Source: Pseudomonadales bacterium
GTDB lineage: Bacteria; Pseudomonadota; Gammaproteobacteria; Pseudomonadales; JAHRWD01
Direction: 5' to 3'
Assembly (NCBI GenBank): GCA_016763075.1
Contig: JAESUM010000095.1
Location: forward strand, 1-42,637
Length of the DNA stretch: 42,637 nt
Shown: positions 1 through 12,321 of the stretch, piece after piece
How the letters are laid out: every line of letters begins with the position of its first letter
Position numbering within the stretch: position 1 is the stretch's first letter
Made by a program: the position numbers and the translations under genes
Notes under the pieces: generated by a model
Told to the model about the DNA's origin: nothing
What the model saw: only the letters and a program-made list of their open reading frames with translations
The model's database searches: none

Positions 1-120
1 AACGTTCAAATGGTTGTCACCATGATTGCGCCTATCGCGATGGAAGAAGGGTTGCGTTTCGCGATCCGCGAAGGTGGTCGCACGGTTGGTGCGGGCGTCG
101 TCGCTAAAATTATTGAGTAG
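1..120 (+). CDS. tuf: Elongation factor Tu, 3' end only (first tuf copy)
   Basis: The window opens in frame inside a tuf gene. The last 39 codons and a TAG stop are present, covering the end of the C-terminal beta-barrel (domain 3) that helps bind aminoacyl-tRNA. Bases 1-119 are identical to 16670-16788 of the complete tuf copy in this window, and only the last base of the stop codon differs (TAG here, TAA there). The position directly ahead of tRNA-Trp and secE matches tufB of Pseudomonas-type genomes. The 5' end lies outside the window. Confidence 0.97.
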
Positions 121-140
121 TTTGTAACTGCCATTACTTT

Positions 141-168
141 AAAGTGAGATCCTGCGTGGTCTCATTTT
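141..168 (+). terminator. Terminator-like hairpin after the first tuf copy
   Basis: TGAGATC (145-151) pairs with GGTCTCA (158-164) around a six-base loop. The stem extends outward through AAAG/TTTT to about 11 base pairs with one or two G-U pairs. The T run is only four bases, so termination may be partial, which would let some transcripts continue into tRNA-Trp and secE. Confidence 0.4.
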
Positions 169-203
169 GCTGTTTATGGCGTATTGGTGTACCAGGTTAA
201 TTT

Positions 204-279
<76 letters not shown>

Positions 280-343
280 TTTATTGTGCAGGTATTGGAT
301 TAATCTGGTTCGGAGTGTTGGTTGCGAAGAGTAGATCTATAAA

Positions 344-712
344 ATGAGCGGTAAATCTGAATCTCAGTCTGGTTCGTTTGATCTTCTGAAGTGGTTTCTT
401 GTTGCTGCGGTTATAGCTGTAGGTGTTGGCGGGAACTACTATTTCTCGTCTGAATCCCTTTTGTATCGCGCGCTAGCGTTGGTTGCGTTGTCATCGCTAG
501 CTATTGCTGTTGCTTTTCAAACCGCAAGCGGGCATAGCTTTTTTAAGCTGATTAAAGAAGCTCGGGCCGAAATTCGTAAGGTTATTTGGCCAACCCGTGC
601 CGAAACCGGTCAAACCACGCTTATTGTCGTTGCTGTCGTGTTTGTCATGGCCTTGGTATTGTGGGGGCTTGATTCGTTTTTCAGTTGGGTTGTTTCATTG
701 TTAATCGGTTAG
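344..712 (+). CDS. secE: Preprotein translocase subunit SecE
   Basis: SecE clamps the SecY channel in the inner membrane and is essential for Sec-dependent export. The 122-residue product is the three-helix gammaproteobacterial form, with hydrophobic segments near residues 14-31, 41-59 and 92-120. A conserved amphipathic stretch before the last helix ([17 protein letters not shown], about 71-87) contacts SecY. The ATG at 344 has only a weak purine-rich upstream sequence, but no other start fits. nusG follows 10 bases later, the standard secE-nusG pair. The partner secY lies in the spc operon of this window. Confidence 0.97.
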
Positions 713-722
713 GACTTCTTTC

Positions 723-1256
723 ATGACTAAACGCTGGTACGTTGTACATGCCTATTCTGGGTATGAAAAAAGAGTTAAGGCTGCGCTTGAAGAGCGTATC
801 GAACTAATGGATATGGCCGATAGCTTTGGTCGCATTATGGTTCCTACCGAAGAAGTCGTCGAAATTAGAGCGGGTCAAAAGCGCAAGAGTGAGCGCAAAT
901 TTTTTCCAGGCTACGTCCTGGTTGAAATGGAGCTTGACGACGATAGCTGGCACCTGGTTAAAGAGACGTCGCGAGTTCTCGGGTTTATTGGCGGTACCGC
1001 AGAAAAGCCGGCCCCTATCACTGAAAAAGAAGCGAACGAAATCTTACAGCGCATCGAAGAAGGGGCAGAGAAGCCCAAGCCTAAGACATTGTTTGAACCG
1101 GGCGAAATGGTCCGGGTTGTTGATGGGCCGTTTAACGACTTTAATGGTGTTGTAGAGAAAGTGAATTACGAGAAGAGTCGCTTGCAGGTATCCGTGTTGA
1201 TATTTGGGCGTTCTACTCCAGTCGAGTTAGAGTTTGGGCAGGTTGAAAAAGGTTAA
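723..1256 (+). CDS. nusG: Transcription termination/antitermination factor NusG
   Basis: NusG binds elongating RNA polymerase through its N-terminal NGN domain. Its C-terminal KOW domain contacts either Rho or ribosomal protein S10, coupling transcription to termination or translation. The 177-residue product begins [18 protein letters not shown], the typical NGN start. The KOW segment lies at about residues 125-155 ([19 protein letters not shown]). Length is close to the E. coli protein. AGGACTTC sits just upstream of the ATG. The KOW partner S10 (rpsJ) is also encoded in this window. Confidence 0.98.
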
Positions 1257-1262
1257 ATTGAT

Positions 1263-1290
1263 ATTTTGGCCTCCCAAAATTGATTGTTTT
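1263..1290 (+). terminator. Terminator or attenuator hairpin between nusG and rplK
   Basis: ATTTTGG (1263-1269) pairs perfectly with CCAAAAT (1274-1280) across a four-base loop. It is followed by TGATTGTTTT, a loosely T-rich tract. The stem is AT-rich and only seven base pairs, so it is more likely partial than complete. It separates secE-nusG from the rplKA genes, where E. coli has a new promoter. Confidence 0.4.
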
Positions 1291-1293
1291 ACA

Positions 1294-1323
1294 GGGTAGC
1301 CGGCACACTGTTGGCAGTAACCC
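1294..1323 (+). promoter_or_regulatory. Candidate L1-binding leader hairpin upstream of rplK
   Basis: GGGT (1294-1297) pairs with ACCC (1320-1323), and GCC (1299-1301) pairs with GGC (1313-1315). The two helices are separated by an asymmetric internal loop (A on the 5' side, AGTA on the 3' side). In E. coli, L1 represses its own operon by binding an rRNA-like two-helix site in the leader of rplK. The position and asymmetric loop fit that idea. The assignment rests on base pairing and location, not on a model search. Confidence 0.4.
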
Positions 1324-1341
1324 GTTCAGGAGAATAGCTAA

Positions 1342-1773
1342 ATGGCTAAGAAAGTAGAAGCATATATAAAGCTGCAGGTTGCTGCAGGTAAAGCCAGCCC
1401 CAGTCCGCCAGTTGGTCCGGCATTGGGTCAGCACGGCGTAAATATCATGGAGTTTTGTAAAGCGTTTAACGCTAAAACTCAGGGTATGGAAGCTGGAATG
1501 CCGATTCCCGTTATCATTTCCGTGTATTCGGACCGTAGCTTCACCTTTGAAACTAAGACTCCTCCTGCTTCTTATTTGCTCAAGAAGGCGGCGGGCATCC
1601 AAAAAGGCAGTGGTACACCGAACACCAATAAAGTAGGTAAAGTTACCCGTGTTCAATTGGAAGAAATTGCTACCGTAAAAATGGCTGATTTGAACGCCGT
1701 TGATATGGATTCAGCAGTTCGTATTATCGCCGGAAGTGCTCGCAGCGCTGGCATTGAAGTGGAGGGCGTATAA
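1342..1773 (+). CDS. rplK: 50S ribosomal protein L11
   Basis: L11 binds the GTPase-associated region of 23S rRNA and takes part in factor-dependent GTP hydrolysis and in RelA activation by uncharged tRNA. The 143-residue product has the conserved N-terminal proline-rich helix region ([16 protein letters not shown], about residues 19-34) and the C-terminal RNA-binding domain containing the [13 protein letters not shown] stretch. The lysines used by methyltransferase PrmA are in the usual places. AGGAG lies upstream of the ATG. The stop codon abuts the rplA start with no gap, indicating coupled translation. Confidence 0.99.
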
Positions 1774-2466
1774 ATGGCTAAGGTAACGAAGCGAAATAAA
1801 GCTATCAATGAAAAAGTAGATCCTGCTAAATTCTATTCGGTTGAAGAGGCAGTTACTCTGCTTAACGAGCTGTCTACGGTTAAGTTTAAAGAATCTATCG
1901 ACGTCGCGATTAATCTGGGCGTCGATCCTCGTAAATCAGATCAAGCGGTTCGCGGCGCAACTGTGTTACCTAAAGGTACCGGAAAAATCGTACGTGTTGC
2001 GGTTTTCGCTGATGGCGAAAACGCTGTTAAAGCGACAGAAGCAGGCGCAGATATCGTTGGAATGGATGATCTGGCTGCTACTGTAAAAGGCGGTGATCTC
2101 AATTTTGACGTCGTGATTGCGACTCCAGACTCAATGCGTGTTGTTGGGCAGCTGGGCCAGGTTCTTGGGCCGCGTGGCCTTATGCCTAACCCTAAAGTGG
2201 GTACAGTGACTAAAGACGTCGCAGCAGCAGTGAAAAATGCAAAAGCCGGGCAAGTTCGATACCGAACCGATAAAGGCGGCATTATCCACGGCGGCATTGG
2301 TCAGATTGGCTTTGCTCCTGCGGATATCAAAATCAACCTTGAAGCGTTGTTAGCCGACCTTCGCAAATATAAGCCAACTACAGCAAAAGGCATTTACACG
2401 AAGAAAGTTGCGCTGTCCTCGACTATGGGGCCAAGTCTCCTAATCGATTTATCGACACTCGACTAA
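1774..2466 (+). CDS. rplA: 50S ribosomal protein L1
   Basis: L1 forms the mobile L1 stalk that guides deacylated tRNA out of the E site. In enteric bacteria it also represses translation of rplK-rplA. The product is 230 residues, close to the family norm of about 230-234. Recognisable blocks include [12 protein letters not shown] and [15 protein letters not shown]. The ATG follows the rplK TAA directly, and its GGAGG ribosome site lies inside the end of rplK, so translation is coupled. The structured L10 leader follows. Confidence 0.99.
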
Positions 2467-2504
2467 TTTTTAGGCGTGATTAACGTCTACCAAACTTTGG
2501 GGTT

Positions 2505-2604
2505 TTCGGCGGTTTGTATCTAGTAATACAAACCGTCGGAGCCTATCAAAGACCACGGGTCGCAGTGATCGAAGGTTATATCTCTGCGTTAATGTTTGCC
2601 CGTG
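2505..2604 (+). promoter_or_regulatory. L10-type mRNA leader of rplJ-rplL (two hairpins)
   Basis: The rplA-rplJ spacer is 277 bases and strongly structured. The first hairpin pairs 2505-2519 with 2526-2540 (core CGGTTTGTAT/ATACAAACCG). The second has an outer helix CACGGG (2554-2559)/CCCGTG (2599-2604) and an inner helix CGCAG (2561-2565)/CTGCG (2584-2588), with one base between them on the 5' side and ten on the 3' side. In gammaproteobacteria the L10-L12 complex binds a kinked leader here to repress rplJL. The asymmetric internal loop is what I would expect of that site. I found no convincing promoter in this spacer. Confidence 0.6.
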
Positions 2605-2743
2605 TAGATAGCGGAACCCGATTCATACCGAATTTAGTTACCGTAAGGCATTCATCATTCGTAGTTTAAATGATGGATTGATATTTAACTGATGCCACCG
2701 GCGCTATTTTGCTGGTTGGTTGTTCTTTCTTGGAGTGATGCCA

Positions 2744-3274
2744 ATGGCGTTAGATCTCGAAGGCAAAAAAGTAATCGTCGCAGAAGTAACTGAAGCTGTG
2801 AGCTCTGCTTTGTCTGCAGTTATTGCCGATTACCGCGGAACAGACGTATCAGCACTCACCTCTCTGCGCAGTCAAGCGCGCGAGCAAGGTGTATACGTTC
2901 GAGTTGTTAGAAACTCTCTAGCAAAACGAGCGATAGTGGGTACAGAGTTCGAATGCATGAGCGAGGCTTTTGTCGGCCCAACTTTGCTTGCATTATCCCT
3001 TGACAGCCCTGGAGCTGCAGCTCGCTTACTCAAGGACTTTGCGAAAGCAAATGATACCTTCGAAGTGCGCGCTTTAGCTATCGGCGGTGAGTTAATGGGG
3101 CCAGAGAAACTAGATGCGGTTGCGAAACTGCCTACTCGTGATGAGGCAATCTCTATCCTTATGGGTACGATGCTTGCACCTGTCTCGAAACTAGTTTCTA
3201 CAATGAACGAAGTGCCATCTAAGTTCGTTCGTGTGGTTGCAGCGGTTAAAGACCAAAAGCAGGAAGCTGCTTAA
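2744..3274 (+). CDS. rplJ: 50S ribosomal protein L10
   Basis: L10 anchors L7/L12 dimers to the ribosome, forming the base of the stalk that recruits translation factors. With L12 it represses its own leader. The product is 176 residues starting [16 protein letters not shown] chose the ATG at 2744 because GGAG (2732-2735) is eight bases away. The ATG at 2738 is too close to that site, and a TTG at 2720 precedes it. Conserved features include [13 protein letters not shown] and the NSLAKRA segment. The C-terminal helix that binds L12 is present. Confidence 0.97.
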
Positions 3275-3301
3275 GGCGACATATTTTTGTCTATTTTTTA
3301 T

Positions 3302-3318
3302 TGATCTAAATTAGATCA
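3302..3318 (+). repeat. Palindrome in the rplJ-rplL spacer
   Basis: TGATCTAA (3302-3309) and TTAGATCA (3311-3318) form a near-perfect inverted repeat around one central base in an AT-rich 82-base spacer. As RNA it would fold as a seven-base-pair hairpin with a three-base loop. It may protect or process the rplL message, since L12 is made in several-fold excess over L10, but no role can be shown from sequence. Confidence 0.4.
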
Positions 3319-3356
3319 TAATTTTATTTGTTAATTAGATTATTGGGGATTTACAG

Positions 3357-3737
3357 ATGTCTCTTTCAAAAGAAGATATTTTAGAAGCTATCGCGGAAAT
3401 GAGCGTAATGGATATCGTTGAATTGATTTCAGCGATGGAAGAGAAATTCGGTGTATCTGCAGCAGCAGCGGCAGCTCCAGCAGCTCCAGCAGCTGGCGGA
3501 GAAGGCGCAGGCGCAGCAGAAGAGCAGACTGAATTTGATGTTATTATCACCGGCGCGGGTGAAAAGAAAGTTAATGCTATTAAGGCCGTTCGCGCAATTA
3601 CCGGTCTTGGTCTTAAAGAAGCTAAAGCGGTTGTTGACGGAGCTCCAGCTCCTGTTAAGGAAGGCGTTTCTAAAGAAGAAGCAGAAGACGCCCGTAAGCA
3701 GCTTGAAGAGGCTGGCGCTTCTGTCGAAGTTAAGTAA
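3357..3737 (+). CDS. rplL: 50S ribosomal protein L7/L12
   Basis: L7/L12 is the multicopy acidic stalk protein that recruits and stimulates IF2, EF-Tu, EF-G and release factors. The 126-residue product has the usual three parts. There is an N-terminal dimerisation helix pair (about 1-33), a flexible Ala/Pro/Gly-rich hinge (about 37-55, with a run of six alanines) and a C-terminal factor-binding domain with [15 protein letters not shown]. The GGGGA ribosome site is well placed. The hinge is alanine-rich but within the family range. Confidence 0.99.
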
Positions 3738-3750
3738 GACGGAAAGCATA

Positions 3751-3774
3751 CCGCAAGACGGAATCGTCTTGCGG
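3751..3774 (+). promoter_or_regulatory. Perfect ten-base-pair hairpin downstream of rplL
   Basis: CCGCAAGACG (3751-3760) pairs with CGTCTTGCGG (3765-3774) across the loop GAAT. No T run follows, so it is not a simple terminator. In E. coli the same spacer contains an attenuator and an RNase III processing site that set the L12 to beta ratio. This hairpin begins 13 bases after the rplL stop and is a plausible processing or 3'-end-stabilising structure. Confidence 0.5.
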
Positions 3775-3782
3775 TGGGGATT

Positions 3783-3818
3783 GGCTGGTGAATTGTTCAC
3801 CGGCCTTTCGCCGTTTTT
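3783..3818 (+). terminator. Candidate rplL-rpoB attenuator with overlapping hairpins
   Basis: A hairpin pairs 3783-3792 with 3796-3805 (core GGTGAA/TTCACC). A shorter GC-only hairpin CGGC (3801-3804)/GCCG (3810-3813) is followed at once by five T residues (3814-3818). The two stems share 3801-3804, so they cannot form together. That is the arrangement of a switchable, partial terminator, which would fit the reduced rpoBC expression known downstream of rplL in E. coli. Only four base pairs precede the T run, so the effect may be modest. Confidence 0.45.
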
Positions 3819-3849
3819 GGTTTGTCATAATTTGTACTGCTGTAAAAAC

Positions 3850-3882
3850 GTTTGTCGCAAGGTTTATTGTAAAGCGACAAAC
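3850..3882 (+). promoter_or_regulatory. Nine-base-pair hairpin ahead of rpoB
   Basis: GTTTGTCGC (3850-3858) pairs perfectly with GCGACAAAC (3874-3882) across a 15-base loop. It is the third stable stem in the 231-base rplL-rpoB spacer and lies about 86 bases before the rpoB start. An RNase III or RNase E processing role is possible by analogy with E. coli. Nothing in the sequence proves it. Confidence 0.4.
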
Positions 3883-3968
3883 TTGTTACGCAATTGGATG
3901 CTTTGTTTGGGTAGTCTTCCTGGTAGAGCACATTTGCATCAGATCATTATCATTCGCGGGGAAGCTTG

Positions 3969-6900
3969 ATGGGTTCTTACTCCTACACAGAGAAAAAACG
4001 CATACGTAAAGATTTTGGAAAATTGCCGAGGGTAATGGATGTCCCTTACTTGCTATCGATACAGTTGGATTCTTATAAAAAGTTTCTACAAGAAGATCGG
4101 GCAAGTGAAGATCGTTTAGATCAAGGTTTACAGGCAGCGTTTAAATCGGTATTCCCGATTGTGAGCAACTCAGGTACAGCGGCATTAGAATTTGTCTCGT
4201 ATCGTTTTGGCGAACCAGCATTTGATGTTAAAGAATGCCAGCAGCGAGGTGTTACCTACGCTGTGCCTTTACGCGTTAAAGTACGTCTGATTATTTATGA
4301 TAAAGAATCATCGACTCGCGTAATTAAAGATATTAAAGAGCAGGAGGTCTACATGGGGGACCTTCCGATAATGACTGGTAACGGTACCTTTGTAATCAAC
4401 GGTACAGAGCGAGTCATCGTGTCTCAATTGCACCGTTCCCCCGGTGTATTTTTTGATCACGACAAAGGCAAAACCCACTCCTCGGGTAAACTCCTATATT
4501 CAGCGCGAGTAATTCCCTACCGTGGTTCTTGGTTGGATTTTGAATTCGATGCAAAGGACATGGTTTATGTTCGAATCGATCGAAGAAGAAAGTTGCCGGC
4601 AACCATATTGTTGCGTGCATTGGACTACTCCACCGAAGAAATTTTGGGGATGTTTTTCGAAAACAATGCTTACACCTACGATGGCGAGAATTTCTCGTTA
4701 GACTTTGTGCCATCGCGTCTTCGCGGCGAATCGCTACCGATGGATGTTACCGACGGCAAAGGCGAGGTGATTGTAGAGCAAGGTAAGCGAGTTACCAGTC
4801 GTCACATCCGCCAACTTGAGAAGGCTAACCTCACAACCTTGATTGTGCCTGGTGAATATTTGGTTGGCCAAAGCATCAGCCGAGACATTATCAACACCGA
4901 AACCGGCGAACTTCTGTGTGCATGTAATACAGAAATTACCGAAGAATTGATTGAGCAATTCAAAGAAGCCAAGATTGCTTCTTTCGGTACTTTGTACACG
5001 AACGAGCTAGATTGCGGCGCATTTATTTCCGACACTTTACGGATTGATCCGGCGTCGAACCGCCTCGAAGCGTTAATCGAAATTTACCGAATGATGCGAC
5101 CGGGTGAGCCGCCAACAAAAGACTCAGCGGAAAACCTTTTTGGGAATTTGTTCTTCTCGTCAGAAAGATATGATCTTTCTGCAGTAGGGCGTATGAAATT
5201 CAACCGTCGCTTAGGTCGTAACATTGAGACCGGTGAAGGCACGCTTTCTTTCGATGATGTCGTCGACGTACTTAAGACATTAATTGAAATCCGCAACGGT
5301 AAAGGCGTGGTCGACGATATCGATCATCTGGGTAACCGGCGTGTTCGTTCTGTCGGCGAAATGGCTGAAAACCAATTTCGAGTGGGCATCGTTCGAGTCG
5401 AACGTGCGGTTAAAGAACGTCTCAGCATGGCGGAATCTGAAGGTTTAATGCCTCAGGATCTGATTAACGCTAAGCCGGTTGCTGCAGCCGTTAAAGAGTT
5501 TTTCGGTTCAAGCCAGCTGTCTCAGTTTATGGATCAAAATAATCCATTATCCGAAGTGACTCACAAACGCCGTGTTTCTGCATTAGGGCCTGGTGGTCTA
5601 ACGCGTGAACGAGCAGGCTTTGAAGTACGTGACGTACACCCGACTCACTATGGTCGTGTTTGCCCGATTGAAACACCTGAAGGGCCAAACATTGGTCTGA
5701 TCAACTCCTTGGCAACCTATGCGCGTACAAATCCGTATGGCTTTTTAGAAAGCGCATACCGTACCGTAGTCGATGGCGTTGCAACCGACGATATCCATTA
5801 TCTTTCTGCTATTGAAGAAGGTAAGCATGTCATTGCGCAAGCCAGTGCAGGATTAGATAAAGACAATAGGCTGATCGACGAATTGGTCGCAGTTAGGCAC
5901 ATGAACGAATTTACGTTGATGCCGCCGGAAAAAGTTAATTATATGGACGTATCACCGCAGCAGGTTGTATCTGTTGCTGCGTCGCTCATTCCTTTCCTTG
6001 AGCACGATGATGCAAACCGGGCGTTAATGGGCTCGAACATGCAGCGTCAAGCTGTCCCGACAATCCGTGCCGAAAAGCCGTTAGTCGGCACCGGAATGGA
6101 AAAATTTGTTGCGCGTGATTCTGGCGTATGTGTGGTCACAAAACGTGGTGGTATCGTCGATAGCGTCGATGCGTCACGGATTGTTGTGCGTGTGTCCGAG
6201 AGTGAATCAGATGCTGGTGATGCTGGTGTGGATATTTATAACCTCACGAAGTACACCCGCTCAAACCAAAACACCTGCATTAACCAACGACCGCTAGTCA
6301 AAGAAGGCGATACCGTCGAGCGCGGAGATATCGTAGCTGACGGTCCGTCTACTGATATGGGCGAATTGGCGTTGGGCCAAAATATTCGCGTGGCATTTAT
6401 GCCGTGGAACGGATACAACTTCGAAGATTCGATTTTGATCTCCGAGCGGGTTGTTGAAGAAGACCGCTTTACGACTATTCATATTCAAGAACTGACTTGT
6501 ATCGCCCGTGATACAAAGCTTGGTTCAGAAGATGTGACGTCTGATATTCCTAACGTTGGCGAAGGCGCGCTCTCTCGATTAGACGAGTCTGGCATCGTAT
6601 ACGTCGGTGCAGAAGTGACTGCTGGAGATATTTTGGTAGGTAAGGTGACCCCGAAAGGCGAAACCCAATTAACGCCGGAAGAAAAACTCCTACGTGCGAT
6701 CTTTGGCGAGAAAGCTTCTGACGTTAAAGATAGTTCCTTGCGAGTGCCTACCGGCGCGACCGGCATTGTAATTGATGTTCAAGTATTTACTCGTGATGGT
6801 CTTGAAAAAGATACACGAGCGAAAAGCATCGAAGTCTCTCAGCTTACTGAATACCGTAGCGATCTTGATGAAGAATATCGAATTGTGCGCCACGCGGTTC

Positions 6901-8045
6901 AGGCGCGCTTGAACAGCACGTTGAGCGGTAAAGAAGTTGTATCGGCAGCCGGCCTTAATAAAGGTGATGTGATTGCCGATGGTTATTTTGCAACTATCCC
7001 GGAAGACGAGTGGTTTAAAATCCGCATGTCTGACGATGAGCTGAACCGACTTCTTGAAGATTTTGAAACGCAACTTTCTGACCTTAAAACCAATCTTGAT
7101 GAACGCTATGATGTAAAGCGTGACAAATTAACACGCGGTGATGATTTAGCTCCGGGCGTTTTGAAGATGGTCAAAGTGTCATTAGCCGTCAAACGGTGCA
7201 TCCAACCTGGCGATAAAATGGCCGGCCGTCACGGTAACAAAGGTGTTATCTCGGCAATCATGCCGGTTGAAGATATGCCTTACGATGAAACTGGCGAGCC
7301 AGTCGACATCGTGCTAAACCCATTGGGTGTACCGTCGCGAATGAACATTGGGCAGGTGCTTGAAACCCATCTTGGCCTGGCAGCAAAAGAGCTTGGTCGA
7401 AAGATTACTAAGGTTGTTAAAACCGAACAGAAAACCGCCAAGATTCGTGAAGTACTCGATCAGATATATAACGATACCGGTGGCCGTGGCGCTAATTTGG
7501 AGGCGATGTCCGATACCGAAATTCGTGAACTAGCCGATAACCTGGCTGGCGGCGTTCCGATGGCGACCCCTGTATTTGACGGTGCCGATGAAAGCGAAAT
7601 CAAGCACATGCTTGAGCTGGCAGGCCTCGACAAATCCGGTAAATTTACGCTTTATGACGGGCGTACTGGTGATGCCTTTGACCGTAAAGTGACCGTAGGT
7701 TACATGTACATGCTCAAGCTCAACCACTTGGTGGATGACAAAATGCACGCACGTTCAACCGGTTCGTACAGTTTGGTTACGCAGCAACCGCTGGGTGGTA
7801 AAGCTCAGTTTGGTGGTCAGCGATTCGGTGAGATGGAAGTGTGGGCGCTTGAGGCTTACGGCGCGGCGTATACGCTCCAAGAAATGTTAACGGTTAAGTC
7901 CGATGACGTTAACGGACGTACTCGAATGTATAAAAATATTGTCGATGGAGATCATCGCATGGAGCCCGGCATGCCGGAATCCTTTAACGTATTAACCAAA
8001 GAGATTCGGTCTCTGGCTATTAATATCGAATTAGAAAACGATTGA
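3969..8045 (+). CDS. rpoB: DNA-directed RNA polymerase subunit beta
   Basis: This is the beta subunit, forming one pincer and much of the active centre of RNA polymerase. The product is 1358 residues (E. coli 1342). I chose the ATG at 3969, five bases after GGGGAA, over an upstream TTG at 3966. The rifampicin-pocket region reads [20 protein letters not shown], with H532 equal to E. coli H526 (offset +6). The Asp in FMDQN and the Ser in [11 protein letters not shown] are also unchanged, so the target looks drug-sensitive. C-terminal blocks such as [20 protein letters not shown] are present. rpoC follows after 76 bases. Confidence 0.99.
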
Positions 8046-8121
8046 TAATTAGCTGAACGTACTGTTTGTTTCATACTGTTGCAATGATTATGACGTGTAA
8101 AACCCCGATGGAGGGACTGTC

Positions 8122-11100
8122 GTGAAAGACCTACTCGACTTACTGAAAAAACAAAATCAAGCGGATGAGTTTGACGCCATCCGTATCGGCCTAGCATCTC
8201 CAGAGATGATCCGATCTTGGTCTTTTGGTGAAGTAAAAAAACCAGAGACCATCAACTATCGTACATTTAAGCCTGAACGTGACGGACTGTTCTGCGCTAA
8301 GATATTTGGGCCAATTAAAGATTACGAATGCTTGTGCGGCAAATACAAGCGACTCAAACATCGTGGTGTGGTTTGCGAAAAGTGTGGCGTTGAAGTTGCA
8401 GTCGCCAAAGTGCGCCGTGAACGAATGGCCCACATTGAGCTTGCAAGCCCAGTGGCGCACATCTGGTTTTTGAAATCGCTACCTTCACGTATCGGTTTAT
8501 TGCTAGATATGACCCTGCGTGATATCGAGCGAGTGCTGTACTTTGAATCCTTTGTGGTGGTTGATCCGCGTTTGACCACTTTAGAGCGCGGTCAGTTGCT
8601 TACGGACGACCAGTATTTCGAAGCGATGGAAGAGTGGGGCGATGATTTTGACGCCAAAATGGGCGCCGAAGCGATTCAAACATTGCTTAAAGATATCGAT
8701 CTTCGAGCAGAAATAGCCGTTCTACGTGAAGAGATCCCTGCGACAAACTCAGAAACTAAGATCAAAAAGCTTTCCAAGCGGCTGAAGCTAATGGAAGGGT
8801 TTTGCAATTCAGGTAATAAGCCGGAATGGCTCGTACTTGAAGTATTGCCGGTTCTACCGCCAGATCTTCGTCCGCTGGTACCGTTGGATGGTGGCCGTTT
8901 CGCCACTTCTGATTTGAACGACCTATACCGACGAGTGATCAACCGTAACAACCGGTTGAAAAGATTGTTGGATTTGAACGCACCCGATATTATTGTTCGC
9001 AACGAAAAACGTATGCTGCAGGAGTCTGTCGATGCGTTGCTAGATAACGGCCGTCGAGGCCGAGCGATTACAGGGTCTAATAAACGACCACTGAAATCAC
9101 TTGCGGACATGATTAAAGGTAAGCAAGGCCGATTCCGTCAAAACCTTTTGGGTAAACGAGTAGATTACTCAGGCCGGTCGGTGATTGTAGTTGGACCATC
9201 GCTTAAACTGCATCAGTGTGGTTTGCCGAAGAAGATGGCGTTAGAACTGTTTAAACCCTTCGTTTTCGGAAAACTTGAACGCAAAGGTTTAGTGACCACC
9301 ATTAAGGCAGCGAAGAAAATGGTCGAAGATGAGACGCCTGAAGTTTGGGCGGTTCTCGAAGACGTAATTCGCGAACATCCGGTGTTATTAAACCGTGCAC
9401 CAACATTGCACAGACTCGGTATTCAGGCTTTTGAGCCTATATTAACCGAAGGTAAGGCCATTCAGTTACACCCGTTGGTTTGTTCGGCGTACAACGCCGA
9501 TTTCGACGGAGATCAAATGGCTGTTCACGTACCGCTGACTATTGAAGCGCAGCTTGAGTCACGTGCGCTGATGATGTCCACAAACAATATTTTGTCGCCA
9601 GCTAACGGCGAGCCAATCATAGTGCCTTCGCAGGACGTTGTATTGGGTCTGTACTACATGACGCGAAGTCGTATTAACGATCTTGGTGAAGGGTCTATTT
9701 ACGCAGACCCTGACGAAGTCGAGCGGGCTTATTTAAATAAGCAGGCTGGGCTTCAGGCGCTAGTTAAAGTTAGAATCGAAATTACCACTACGGATGAAAA
9801 TGGCGAAAAAACCGTAACTCGTAAGATCGAAGATACAACCGTTGGTCGAGTACTGCTGTACAAAATTGTGCCAGAAGGTTTTGATTTCGCGTTAATCAAT
9901 CAGCATATGACTAAGAAAGCGATTTCGAAAGTCATTAACTATTGTTATCGAACATTTGGTCTTAAAGCGACCGTTATTTTTGCTGACCGTTTGATGTACA
10001 CCGGTTATGCATACTCTACACGGTCCGGTACATCGGTAGGTATTGATGACTTAGTCATCCCGTCGGACAAAGATGAGATTATCGGCCGAGCCGATGCTGA
10101 AGTGAAAGAAATCGAAGATCAATTTTCTTCAGGTCTAGTGACGCAAGGTGAAAAATACAACAAAGTCATCGATATTTGGTCGCGTGCCAATGACATGGTC
10201 GCCAAGTCTATGATGGACACCTTGGGTACTGAAGATACCGTTAACGCCGATGGCGAAACGGTTCCTCAGGAATCCTTTAACTCTATTTATATGATGTCCG
10301 ATTCTGGTGCTCGGGGTTCCGCGGCGCAGATTAGGCAGTTAGCCGGAATGCGAGGCCTGATGGCTAAGCCAGATGGCTCAATCATTGAAACACCTATTAC
10401 AGCGAACTTCCGCGAAGGGTTATCAGTACTTCAGTACTTTATATCTACTCACGGAGCGCGTAAGGGACTTGCTGATACAGCGCTGAAAACAGCTAACTCG
10501 GGTTATCTGACTCGTCGATTGGTTGATGTGTCTCAAGATCTTGTTGTAACAGAGGTTGATTGCGGAACTGAAAACGGACTATTACTTACACCGGTTATCG
10601 CCGGTGGCGATATTATCGAAACTCTCGGTGAGCGTATCTTGGGCCGGGTAGTTTCTGTTGACGTGTATAAGCCGGGAACTAACGATTTAGTGGTTAAGCG
10701 CGGCGTAATGATCGATGAAGCATGGGTTGACGTGCTCGAAGGGCATAGCGTTGACGAACTTATGGTTCGGTCGGTGATCGCTTGCGAAAACCGTTACGGT
10801 ATTTGCGCAATGTGTTACGGCCGTGATCTTGGTCGTGGTCACATGATTAACCAAGGCGAAGCGATTGGCGTTATTGCTGCGCAGTCTATTGGTGAGCCAG
10901 GTACACAGCTGACCATGCGTACGTTCCACATTGGTGGTGCTGCATCTCGAACCTCTGCAGACGATCGTATCCATGTTAAACATGGCGGTACGGTTAGGTT
11001 CCATAACATTAAGTTTGTTGAGCAGAAGAAAGACGTCATCGTCGTGGTTTCACGTTCTGGCGAACTTGCCATTGCCGACGAAAACGGCCGTGAGCGTGAG

Positions 11101-12321
11101 CGCTATAAATTGCCATATGGCGCGATGATTAGCGTTTCTGATGGGTCGTTGGTTGAAGCCGGTCAAACGGTTGCCACATGGGACCCGCATACACATCCAA
11201 TTATTACTGAAGTGGCTGGTACCGTAAGATTCTCTGGGATGGAAGAAGGCATTACAGTGCGCGGGCAAGTAGACGAAATGACCGGTCTGGTCAGTACCTC
11301 TGTTATTGACCCTGCAGAGCGGCCAACCGCTGGTAAAGAGCTTAAGCCAGCAATGACATTGGTCGACGAACATGGCGCTGAGCTGAACATCGCTGGTACC
11401 GATGTCCCGGCGCACTATATGCTGCCAGCTAATTCGATCTTTAATCTTACCGATGGTGCATCGGTTGAGTGTGGCGGAGTGCTAGCGCGTATACCGCAAG
11501 AAAGCTCTAAAACACGAGATATTACTGGTGGTTTGCCTCGGGTTGCTGATCTATTTGATGCGCGTAAGCCGAAAGAGCCATCTATTCTTGCGGAGATCTC
11601 CGGCACCGTTAGTTTCGGTAAGGAAACCAAAGGTAAGCGTAGGCTTGTAATTACGCCTACTGAGGGCGACACATACGAAGCGCTGATCCATAAATGGCGT
11701 CATCTCAACGTGTTCGACGGTGAGCAGGTAGTTAAAGGTGAGGTCGTTTCTGACGGCGCATCAAGCTCGCATGACATTTTGAGATTGAAAGGCGTTACTG
11801 CGCTGGCTAACTATATTACCAACGAGATTCAAGACGTATACCGGCTCCAGGGCGTAAAAATTAACGATAAACATATTGAAGTTATCGTTAGACAGATGTT
11901 ACGTAAAGCCGACGTTGTCGATGCCGGTGATACTACGCTTATTCGTGGCGATCAGGTTGAATACGCAAGAATTCTTGAAGCGAATGAAAAGGCGGTTGCC
12001 GAAGGTAAGGCGCCAGCTAAGTTTGAGCGGGTCTTGTTAGGTATTACTAAAGCGTCCCTTGCTACTGAGTCGTTTATTTCGGCAGCGTCGTTCCAAGAGA
12101 CTACACGTGTTCTAACCGAAGCAGCTGTTACTGCGAAAAGAGATAACTTGCGCGGCTTGAAAGAAAACGTTGTTGTTGGTCGATTGATCCCTGCAGGAAC
12201 CGGCTTGACTTACCACAACGAGCGTAAGCGTAAGAGAGAAGCCGATATGAAAGAGCGTAGAAAGGTGTCCGCATTAGATGCTGATACGTTATTGAGTGAA
12301 GCGCTTAGCTCTACTAAATAA
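8122..12321 (+). CDS. rpoC: DNA-directed RNA polymerase subunit beta'
   Basis: Beta' carries the catalytic magnesium site. The product is 1399 residues, close to E. coli (1407). It starts with GTG after a GGAGGG ribosome site. The N-terminal zinc ribbon is visible as CLCGKY...CEKCG (near residues 70-88). The catalytic NADFDGDQM is at 458-466, with D460, D462 and D464 in the same numbering as E. coli. A second cysteine cluster (VDCGTENG ... [13 protein letters not shown]) lies in the C-terminal half. It is cotranscribed with rpoB. Confidence 0.99.

Follow-up and report, generated by a model that had tools for sequence, protein, structure and literature searches.

Background

The primary papers on the spacer between rplL and rpoB of Escherichia coli are reportedly those of Barry (1980) and of Steward and Linn (1992). 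As described in PMC4670729, an attenuator within rplL-rpoB of E. coli decouples the ribosomal proteins from the RNA polymerase subunits. PMC2777011 names this same spacer as a target of RNase III, and PMC9765468 describes the use of the E. coli rplL terminator, as a stable one, in reporter genes. A study of Shewanella (PMC2659441) lists transcriptional attenuation of rpoB as well. In the E. coli locus (L161), where rplL ends at 666 and rpoB starts at 986, the Rfam model RF00630 (P26) matches between the two genes (671-732, 74.5 bits), in a spacer that carries GGCTGGTGACTTTTTAGTCACCAGCCTTTTTGCGCTG. PMC9029176 gives no function in its listing of P26, and for P. aeruginosa PMC3091763 refers to it as an sRNA whose function is unknown. 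Our literature search, which had most subscription journals outside its reach, found no paper linking P26 to the attenuator.

Sequence data and counting rules

The window, i.e. the whole stretch of 42,637 nucleotides analysed here, comes from a Pseudomonadales bacterium and is numbered from its first letter. Spacers between rplL and rpoB were gathered from genomes belonging to the window's order and class, as well as from 80 named records (which include a few from outside Gammaproteobacteria: L149, L153) and from E. coli. The 231 loci yielded 227 spacers after L031, L162, L179 and L191 had been dropped, and 219 of the remainder were distinct. Hairpins were searched for with the pattern GG[CT][CT][GA]..[GA]GCC, and 127 hairpin-bearing spacers, taken at an identity cut of 62%, served as representatives.

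The alignment A1 comprises 55 of 121 references, hand-chosen with a preference for clear hairpins, and leans towards conservation; the counts over 182 hairpins (4-bp stem, U-tract) took in all hairpin-bearing spacers and not the hand-picked A1. A first segmentation (179 hairpins, 124 representatives), in which the start of the E. coli hairpin was misplaced, lies behind the comparison of box counts between spacers with a strong U-tract and terminators, the count of fully Watson-Crick short stems, the tests of a lower helix against dealt tails and for composition, and the rank of the downstream structure. Among the 43 spacers with a weak U-tract are the window itself and some hairpins of doubtful quality (L036, L172, L192); L044, whose segmentation in the counts over 182 hairpins was faulty, is excluded from this set. 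Ordinary terminators were represented by a baseline of 61, collected across 800 kb in three genomes of this order. The significance of stems was judged by comparing the folding energy of each segment with that of 200 dinucleotide shuffles, and all P-values are uncorrected.

The probable attenuator hairpin

In the window, rplL (ribosomal protein L7/L12; 3357-3737, + strand, identified from its open reading frame and its relatives) is followed on the same strand by rpoB (3969-8045, an open reading frame starting with ATG at 3969), and the spacer between them occupies 3738-3968 (231 nt). Folding of the entire spacer gave a z-score of -4.45, with none of 200 shuffles as good. An earlier note on this DNA had described here a perfect ten-base-pair stem, a second stem, a short GC stem with five T residues that reuses part of the second, and a perfect nine-base-pair stem; all of them were recovered from the sequence and by folding, each where it had been placed. 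The second stem (3783-3792 paired with 3796-3805, + strand; GGCUGGUGAA-UUG-UUCACCGGCC) has ten pairs, one of them G-U, a predicted energy of -16.4 kcal/mol and a z-score of -6.5 (0/200 shuffles as good). It is a hairpin of the attenuator type and sits on the coding strand between rplL and rpoB, as an rplL-rpoB attenuator does. A simple terminator scan of the window listed neither this stem nor the short one.

When positions 1-12000 of the window were compared with Rfam, P26 was the sole non-tRNA match at E<=1 (3765-3806), with a score of 21.5 bits, which does not reach the gathering score of 36; for the congener (L002) no match to RF00630 was obtained at E<=0.1. At genome scale and with E<=0.001, RF00630 had a match in 52 of 293 genomes, in 18 of them above the cut-off, with E. 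coli as the only one to match among 14 control genomes; under the stricter filters of this genome search, neither the genome of the window (G000) nor G001 was matched. Since RF00630 missed most of the order, we built our own search model, R1, from 55 hand-picked relatives, with E. coli included and the genus of the window excluded. In 846 kb, R1 ranked 3781-3817 of the window first (35.5 bits, E 1.2e-6), followed by the congener (34.8 bits) and, in third place, by a site in control DNA (L264, 31.4 bits). The specificity of R1 is imperfect, and the remaining support comes from the position and from the congener. In a search of the phylum R1 gave a match in 100 of 299 genomes, and many of the weaker matches may be ordinary terminators. 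A second match in the window's own genome (G000:C45:6217-6252, L277; 31.5 bits) looks like an ordinary terminator and stands after a reading frame that we take to be flagellin-like.

The stem covaries: in the alignment of 55 relatives, which favours clear hairpins, 99.6% of the cells are paired as compared to 88.3% in shuffles, six of the ten pairs have changed on both sides, and none of 500 shuffles was as good by any of five measures. A P26-type hairpin was found in 182 of the 219 distinct rplL-rpoB spacers, at a median distance of 42 nt past the stop codon, and is missing from the other 37. By its R1 score and by this covariation, the GC-rich hairpin is orthologous to that of the rplL-rpoB attenuator.

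The window and the rpoBC attenuator of E. coli agree in the genes, the place and the kind of hairpin (GGCTGGTGA..TCACCAGCC in E. coli), in the tail bases Y-G (+7/+8) and T (+10), and in the presence of predicted hairpins both upstream and downstream. They differ in the bases after the hairpin (U5 in E. coli, UUUC in the window) and in the sequences of the neighbouring stems; moreover, termination is reported in the sources cited above for E. coli only. With Rfam P26 the window shares the locus and the hairpin, however the consensus of the Rfam model stops one base past the hairpin, so that the conserved box downstream of it is left out. The middle hairpin is very probably the window's version of the gammaproteobacterial rplL-rpoB attenuator, which Rfam carries as "Pseudomonas sRNA P26", and this assignment ties the P26 "sRNA" to the classical rpoBC attenuator. 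The filing in Rfam and the naming in P. aeruginosa (PMC3091763) would instead suggest an independent small RNA with targets in trans. We consider this improbable, as no promoter-like site is listed within the spacer and the conserved part consists of the hairpin and the box that follows it, as at the end of a transcript.

The short stem

The short stem CGGC/GCCG (3801-3804 paired with 3810-3813, + strand), followed by five T residues at 3814-3818, can be drawn as the earlier note had described it, and the four bases that it shares with the second stem (3801-3804) are a real overlap. From this overlap the note had derived a switch between read-through and stop, placed where the outputs of ribosomal proteins and RNA polymerase diverge. 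The site is indeed that of an attenuator, given the E. coli precedent and the hairpin described above, but the switch finds no support in our calculations. With a predicted energy of -5.5 kcal/mol (z -0.97, 30/200 shuffles as good), the short stem is at chance level; taken alone it is 10.9 kcal/mol weaker than the second stem, which in the order of synthesis is complete before the 3' half of the short stem is made. Its pair probability was 0.0 at nine transcript ends from 3810 to 3968, and likewise with the 5' part masked as a ribosome would mask it; forced formation costs 15.8 kcal/mol in a segment of 83 nt, 15.5 in 48 nt and 14.1 in the full 231 nt.

The relatives give the same picture. Of the 182 spacers, 69 allow a 4-bp competing stem, and random dealing of the tails gives 71.9 (sd 1.95); for the 127 representatives the figures are 50 and 50.3. 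Among the 17 spacers whose arm reads CAGC, one has the stem, and E. coli (CAGC and GCUG) has it. On the alignment no covariation of the short stem was seen (65.0% of the cells paired, 65.3% in shuffles), a partner slid by three columns pairs 74.5% of the cells, and the innermost pair is present in 9 of the 55 relatives. Comparative folding had been proposed in the earlier note as a check, with competing stems that are not conserved named as a refuting outcome, and this is the outcome obtained. The two exclusive structures of a terminator/antiterminator pair are thus not both populated in the window, judging by pair probability and forced cost, nor are both kept by covariation in the relatives.

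A competition between the second stem and the short stem with its T5, decided by some signal, could appeal to the fact that both stems can be drawn, that the congener and one other relative (L225) share the same CUUUCGCCGUUU, and that a fully Watson-Crick 4-bp version occurs in 17 of the 179 spacers of the first segmentation, E. coli included. Considering its energetic cost, the pair probability of 0.0, the missing covariation and the order of synthesis, we rejected this switch and regard it as extremely unlikely; it looks like the coincidence of an extra stem, and the whole element at 3801-3818 is best judged incidental.

The U-tract and the downstream box

The 3' half of the short stem (GCCG with the T after it) more likely belongs to a box that follows the attenuator hairpin. 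Counted from the base of the hairpin, the tail begins with a weak U-tract, UUUC (3806-3809, + strand; three leading T in both the window and the congener), and continues with the conserved box Y+7 G+8 n T+10 (3812-3815, + strand; C3812, G3813, T3815), a possible stop or pause point. In 83 of the 127 representatives at least four U directly follow the hairpin, whereas the window has three U and then CGCCG. In two lineages (L007, L190) the attenuator stem seems to extend through the place of the U-tract, with no U-tract left.

Among the representatives whose tail starts with no fewer than four U (first segmentation), G+8 is present in 71/83 and T+10 in 80/83, as opposed to 9/61 and 16/61 of the ordinary terminators (Fisher P-values 3e-18 and 4e-20, respectively), and the pair Y+7G+8 in 68/83 as opposed to 6/61. 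If the baseline is limited to terminators with runs of 4-5 U, YG is found in 4/32 and T+10 in 9/32. The weak-U spacers, with the window and the few doubtful hairpins among them, retain YG in 35/43 and T+10 in 33/43, and the box is weaker with the weakest U-tracts, i.e. at most two U among the first five bases (YG 11/15, T+10 8/15). Since +12 is close to even and the bias at +13 and +14 is slight (T 0.50, G 0.41), common descent by itself can hardly account for the conservation of +8 and +10.

The elemental pause signal is given as G-10, Y-1 G+1 in PMC12288461. With C3812 taken as -1, G3803 falls at -10 and G3813 at +1, which is the register of this signal; G-10 is however fixed by our hairpin search pattern, so that independent support comes from Y-1 and G+1 alone. 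The box is consistent with a pause signal located where transcription would stop, and we infer that it could set this point. The element is of a known kind, with a weak U-tract, and the downstream box may be new. It is conceivable, albeit doubtful, that the rplL-rpoB attenuator represents a distinct class of partial terminators, in which the stop is fixed by a pause signal (Y+7 G+8 n T+10, with G-10) and not by a long U-tract. As the box largely survives the decay of the U-tract, as in this genus, read-through into rpoBC would then be tunable by pausing, for instance by elongation factors or by the supply of polymerase. A conserved box that is mostly missing from the ordinary terminators of three related genomes makes the question of rpoBC read-through testable.

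The persistence of the Y-G box beside weak U-tracts (the 35/43 above, window included) and the lineages L007 and L190, with an extended stem in place of a U-tract, would also agree with a pause site aided by the hairpin and causing little termination, which would govern pausing or coupling ahead of rpoB or else leave a trimmed, stable 3' end. We find this unlikely, given the at least four U directly after the hairpin in most representatives and the distance between hairpin and box. This distance is 7 nt, which is the spacing of a terminator from hairpin to stop point. For pause hairpins stimulated by NusA, in contrast, 10-13 nt upstream of the pause are quoted in PMC12288461.

In all likelihood, the hairpin at 3783-3805 and the box together make up this bacterium's attenuator of transcription between rplL and rpoB, with the rpoBC attenuator of E. 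coli and P26 as its orthologues. The identity, conservation and covariation of the hairpin, the box, the weak U-tract and the absence of evidence for a competing stem have all been computed here; we infer that stopping takes place, as well as its point, its efficiency and the processing of the RNA. As the polymerase leaves rplL, the upstream hairpin would form first and then the attenuator hairpin, which would be complete with the 3' end of the RNA about 7 nt past it (C3812, the next base being G3813). A fraction of the polymerases would stop near 3812, and fewer transcripts would reach rpoBC than rplJL. The weak UUUC tract of this genus, of which two genomes were seen, probably allows more read-through than in the relatives; with three U and no listing in the terminator scan, the genus may terminate poorly at this site or not at all. 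The RNA that is read through would fold the hairpin at 3850-3882, a possible processing site comparable to that of RNase III on the E. coli spacer.

The neighbouring hairpins

The perfect ten-base-pair stem seen earlier is the Watson-Crick core (3751-3760 paired with 3765-3774) of an upstream hairpin that folding extends to 3749-3776 (+ strand), with 12 pairs and a GAAU loop, 11 nt past the rplL stop codon (-20.4 kcal/mol, z -7.7, 0/200 shuffles as good). The segment between stop codon and attenuator hairpin shows an unusual degree of structure (p<=0.05) in 44 of the 113 representatives, compared with 9 of 61 ordinary terminators (Fisher 0.001), and among the strongest ten, E. coli and the window included, no shared sequence was seen. 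Such upstream structure may keep the ribosome, or other pairing, off the attenuator.

We also considered a longer lower helix (3771-3779 with 3806-3814) that would alternate with this upstream hairpin and make it, in place of the short stem, the switch partner. In the first segmentation the upstream flank (12-16 nt) and the tail pair better than the flank and dealt tails (0, 3 and 2 of 5000 as good in three versions), and with the whole upstream segment 164 of 5000 dealt tails are as good. The signal is stronger with a weak U-tract (Wilcoxon 0.002, n 42) than with a strong one (0.105, n 83). Nevertheless, a control for composition leaves a marginal signal (p 0.03-0.04 among several tests), the pairing is predicted in 96 of the 124 representatives of that segmentation against 94 with dealt tails, and forcing the lower helix in the window costs 12.2 kcal/mol. 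With the signal marginal after the composition control and stronger solely in weak-U spacers, pairing of flank and tail was rejected as a family-wide feature, and we give the alternating helix very little credence.

Downstream of the attenuator lies the nine-base-pair stem (3850-3858 paired with 3874-3882, + strand), which is perfect, encloses a 15-nt loop and has a predicted energy of -12.3 kcal/mol (z -3.9, 0/200 shuffles as good). The single congener compared has a predicted hairpin of another sequence at about the same place. As in E. coli, whose spacer RNase III acts on, the nine-base-pair stem is a predicted hairpin between the attenuator and rpoB, and by this analogy it may be a site of RNase III-type processing; for the window, with its 9-bp stem and 15-nt loop, such processing is putative. 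Taken as a whole, the region downstream of the attenuator in the window does not stand out for its structure (z -1.39, rank 75/175, first segmentation).

Observations on other loci

Four Psychrobacter spacers (L138, L151, L152, L155) are 706-857 nt long, and no P26-type hairpin was found in them; they carry another hairpin, eight T and, immediately afterwards, a TATAAT-like stretch, a layout that reads as if rpoBC had its own promoter. Two further "sRNA" matches, Rfam P27 at L112:734-919 and Arrc08 at L148:667-944 (the latter below its gathering score), lie near the expected L10 leader before rplJ, their position being judged by the distance from rplL, and perhaps present the same issue of naming as P26. 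In the rplA-rplJ spacer of the window itself (2467-2719), no Rfam match was obtained at E<=1 and no L10 leader was recognised. Finally, very long rplL-rpoB spacers were seen in L023, L115 and L216 (817, 731 and 639 nt, respectively), which have room for further elements.
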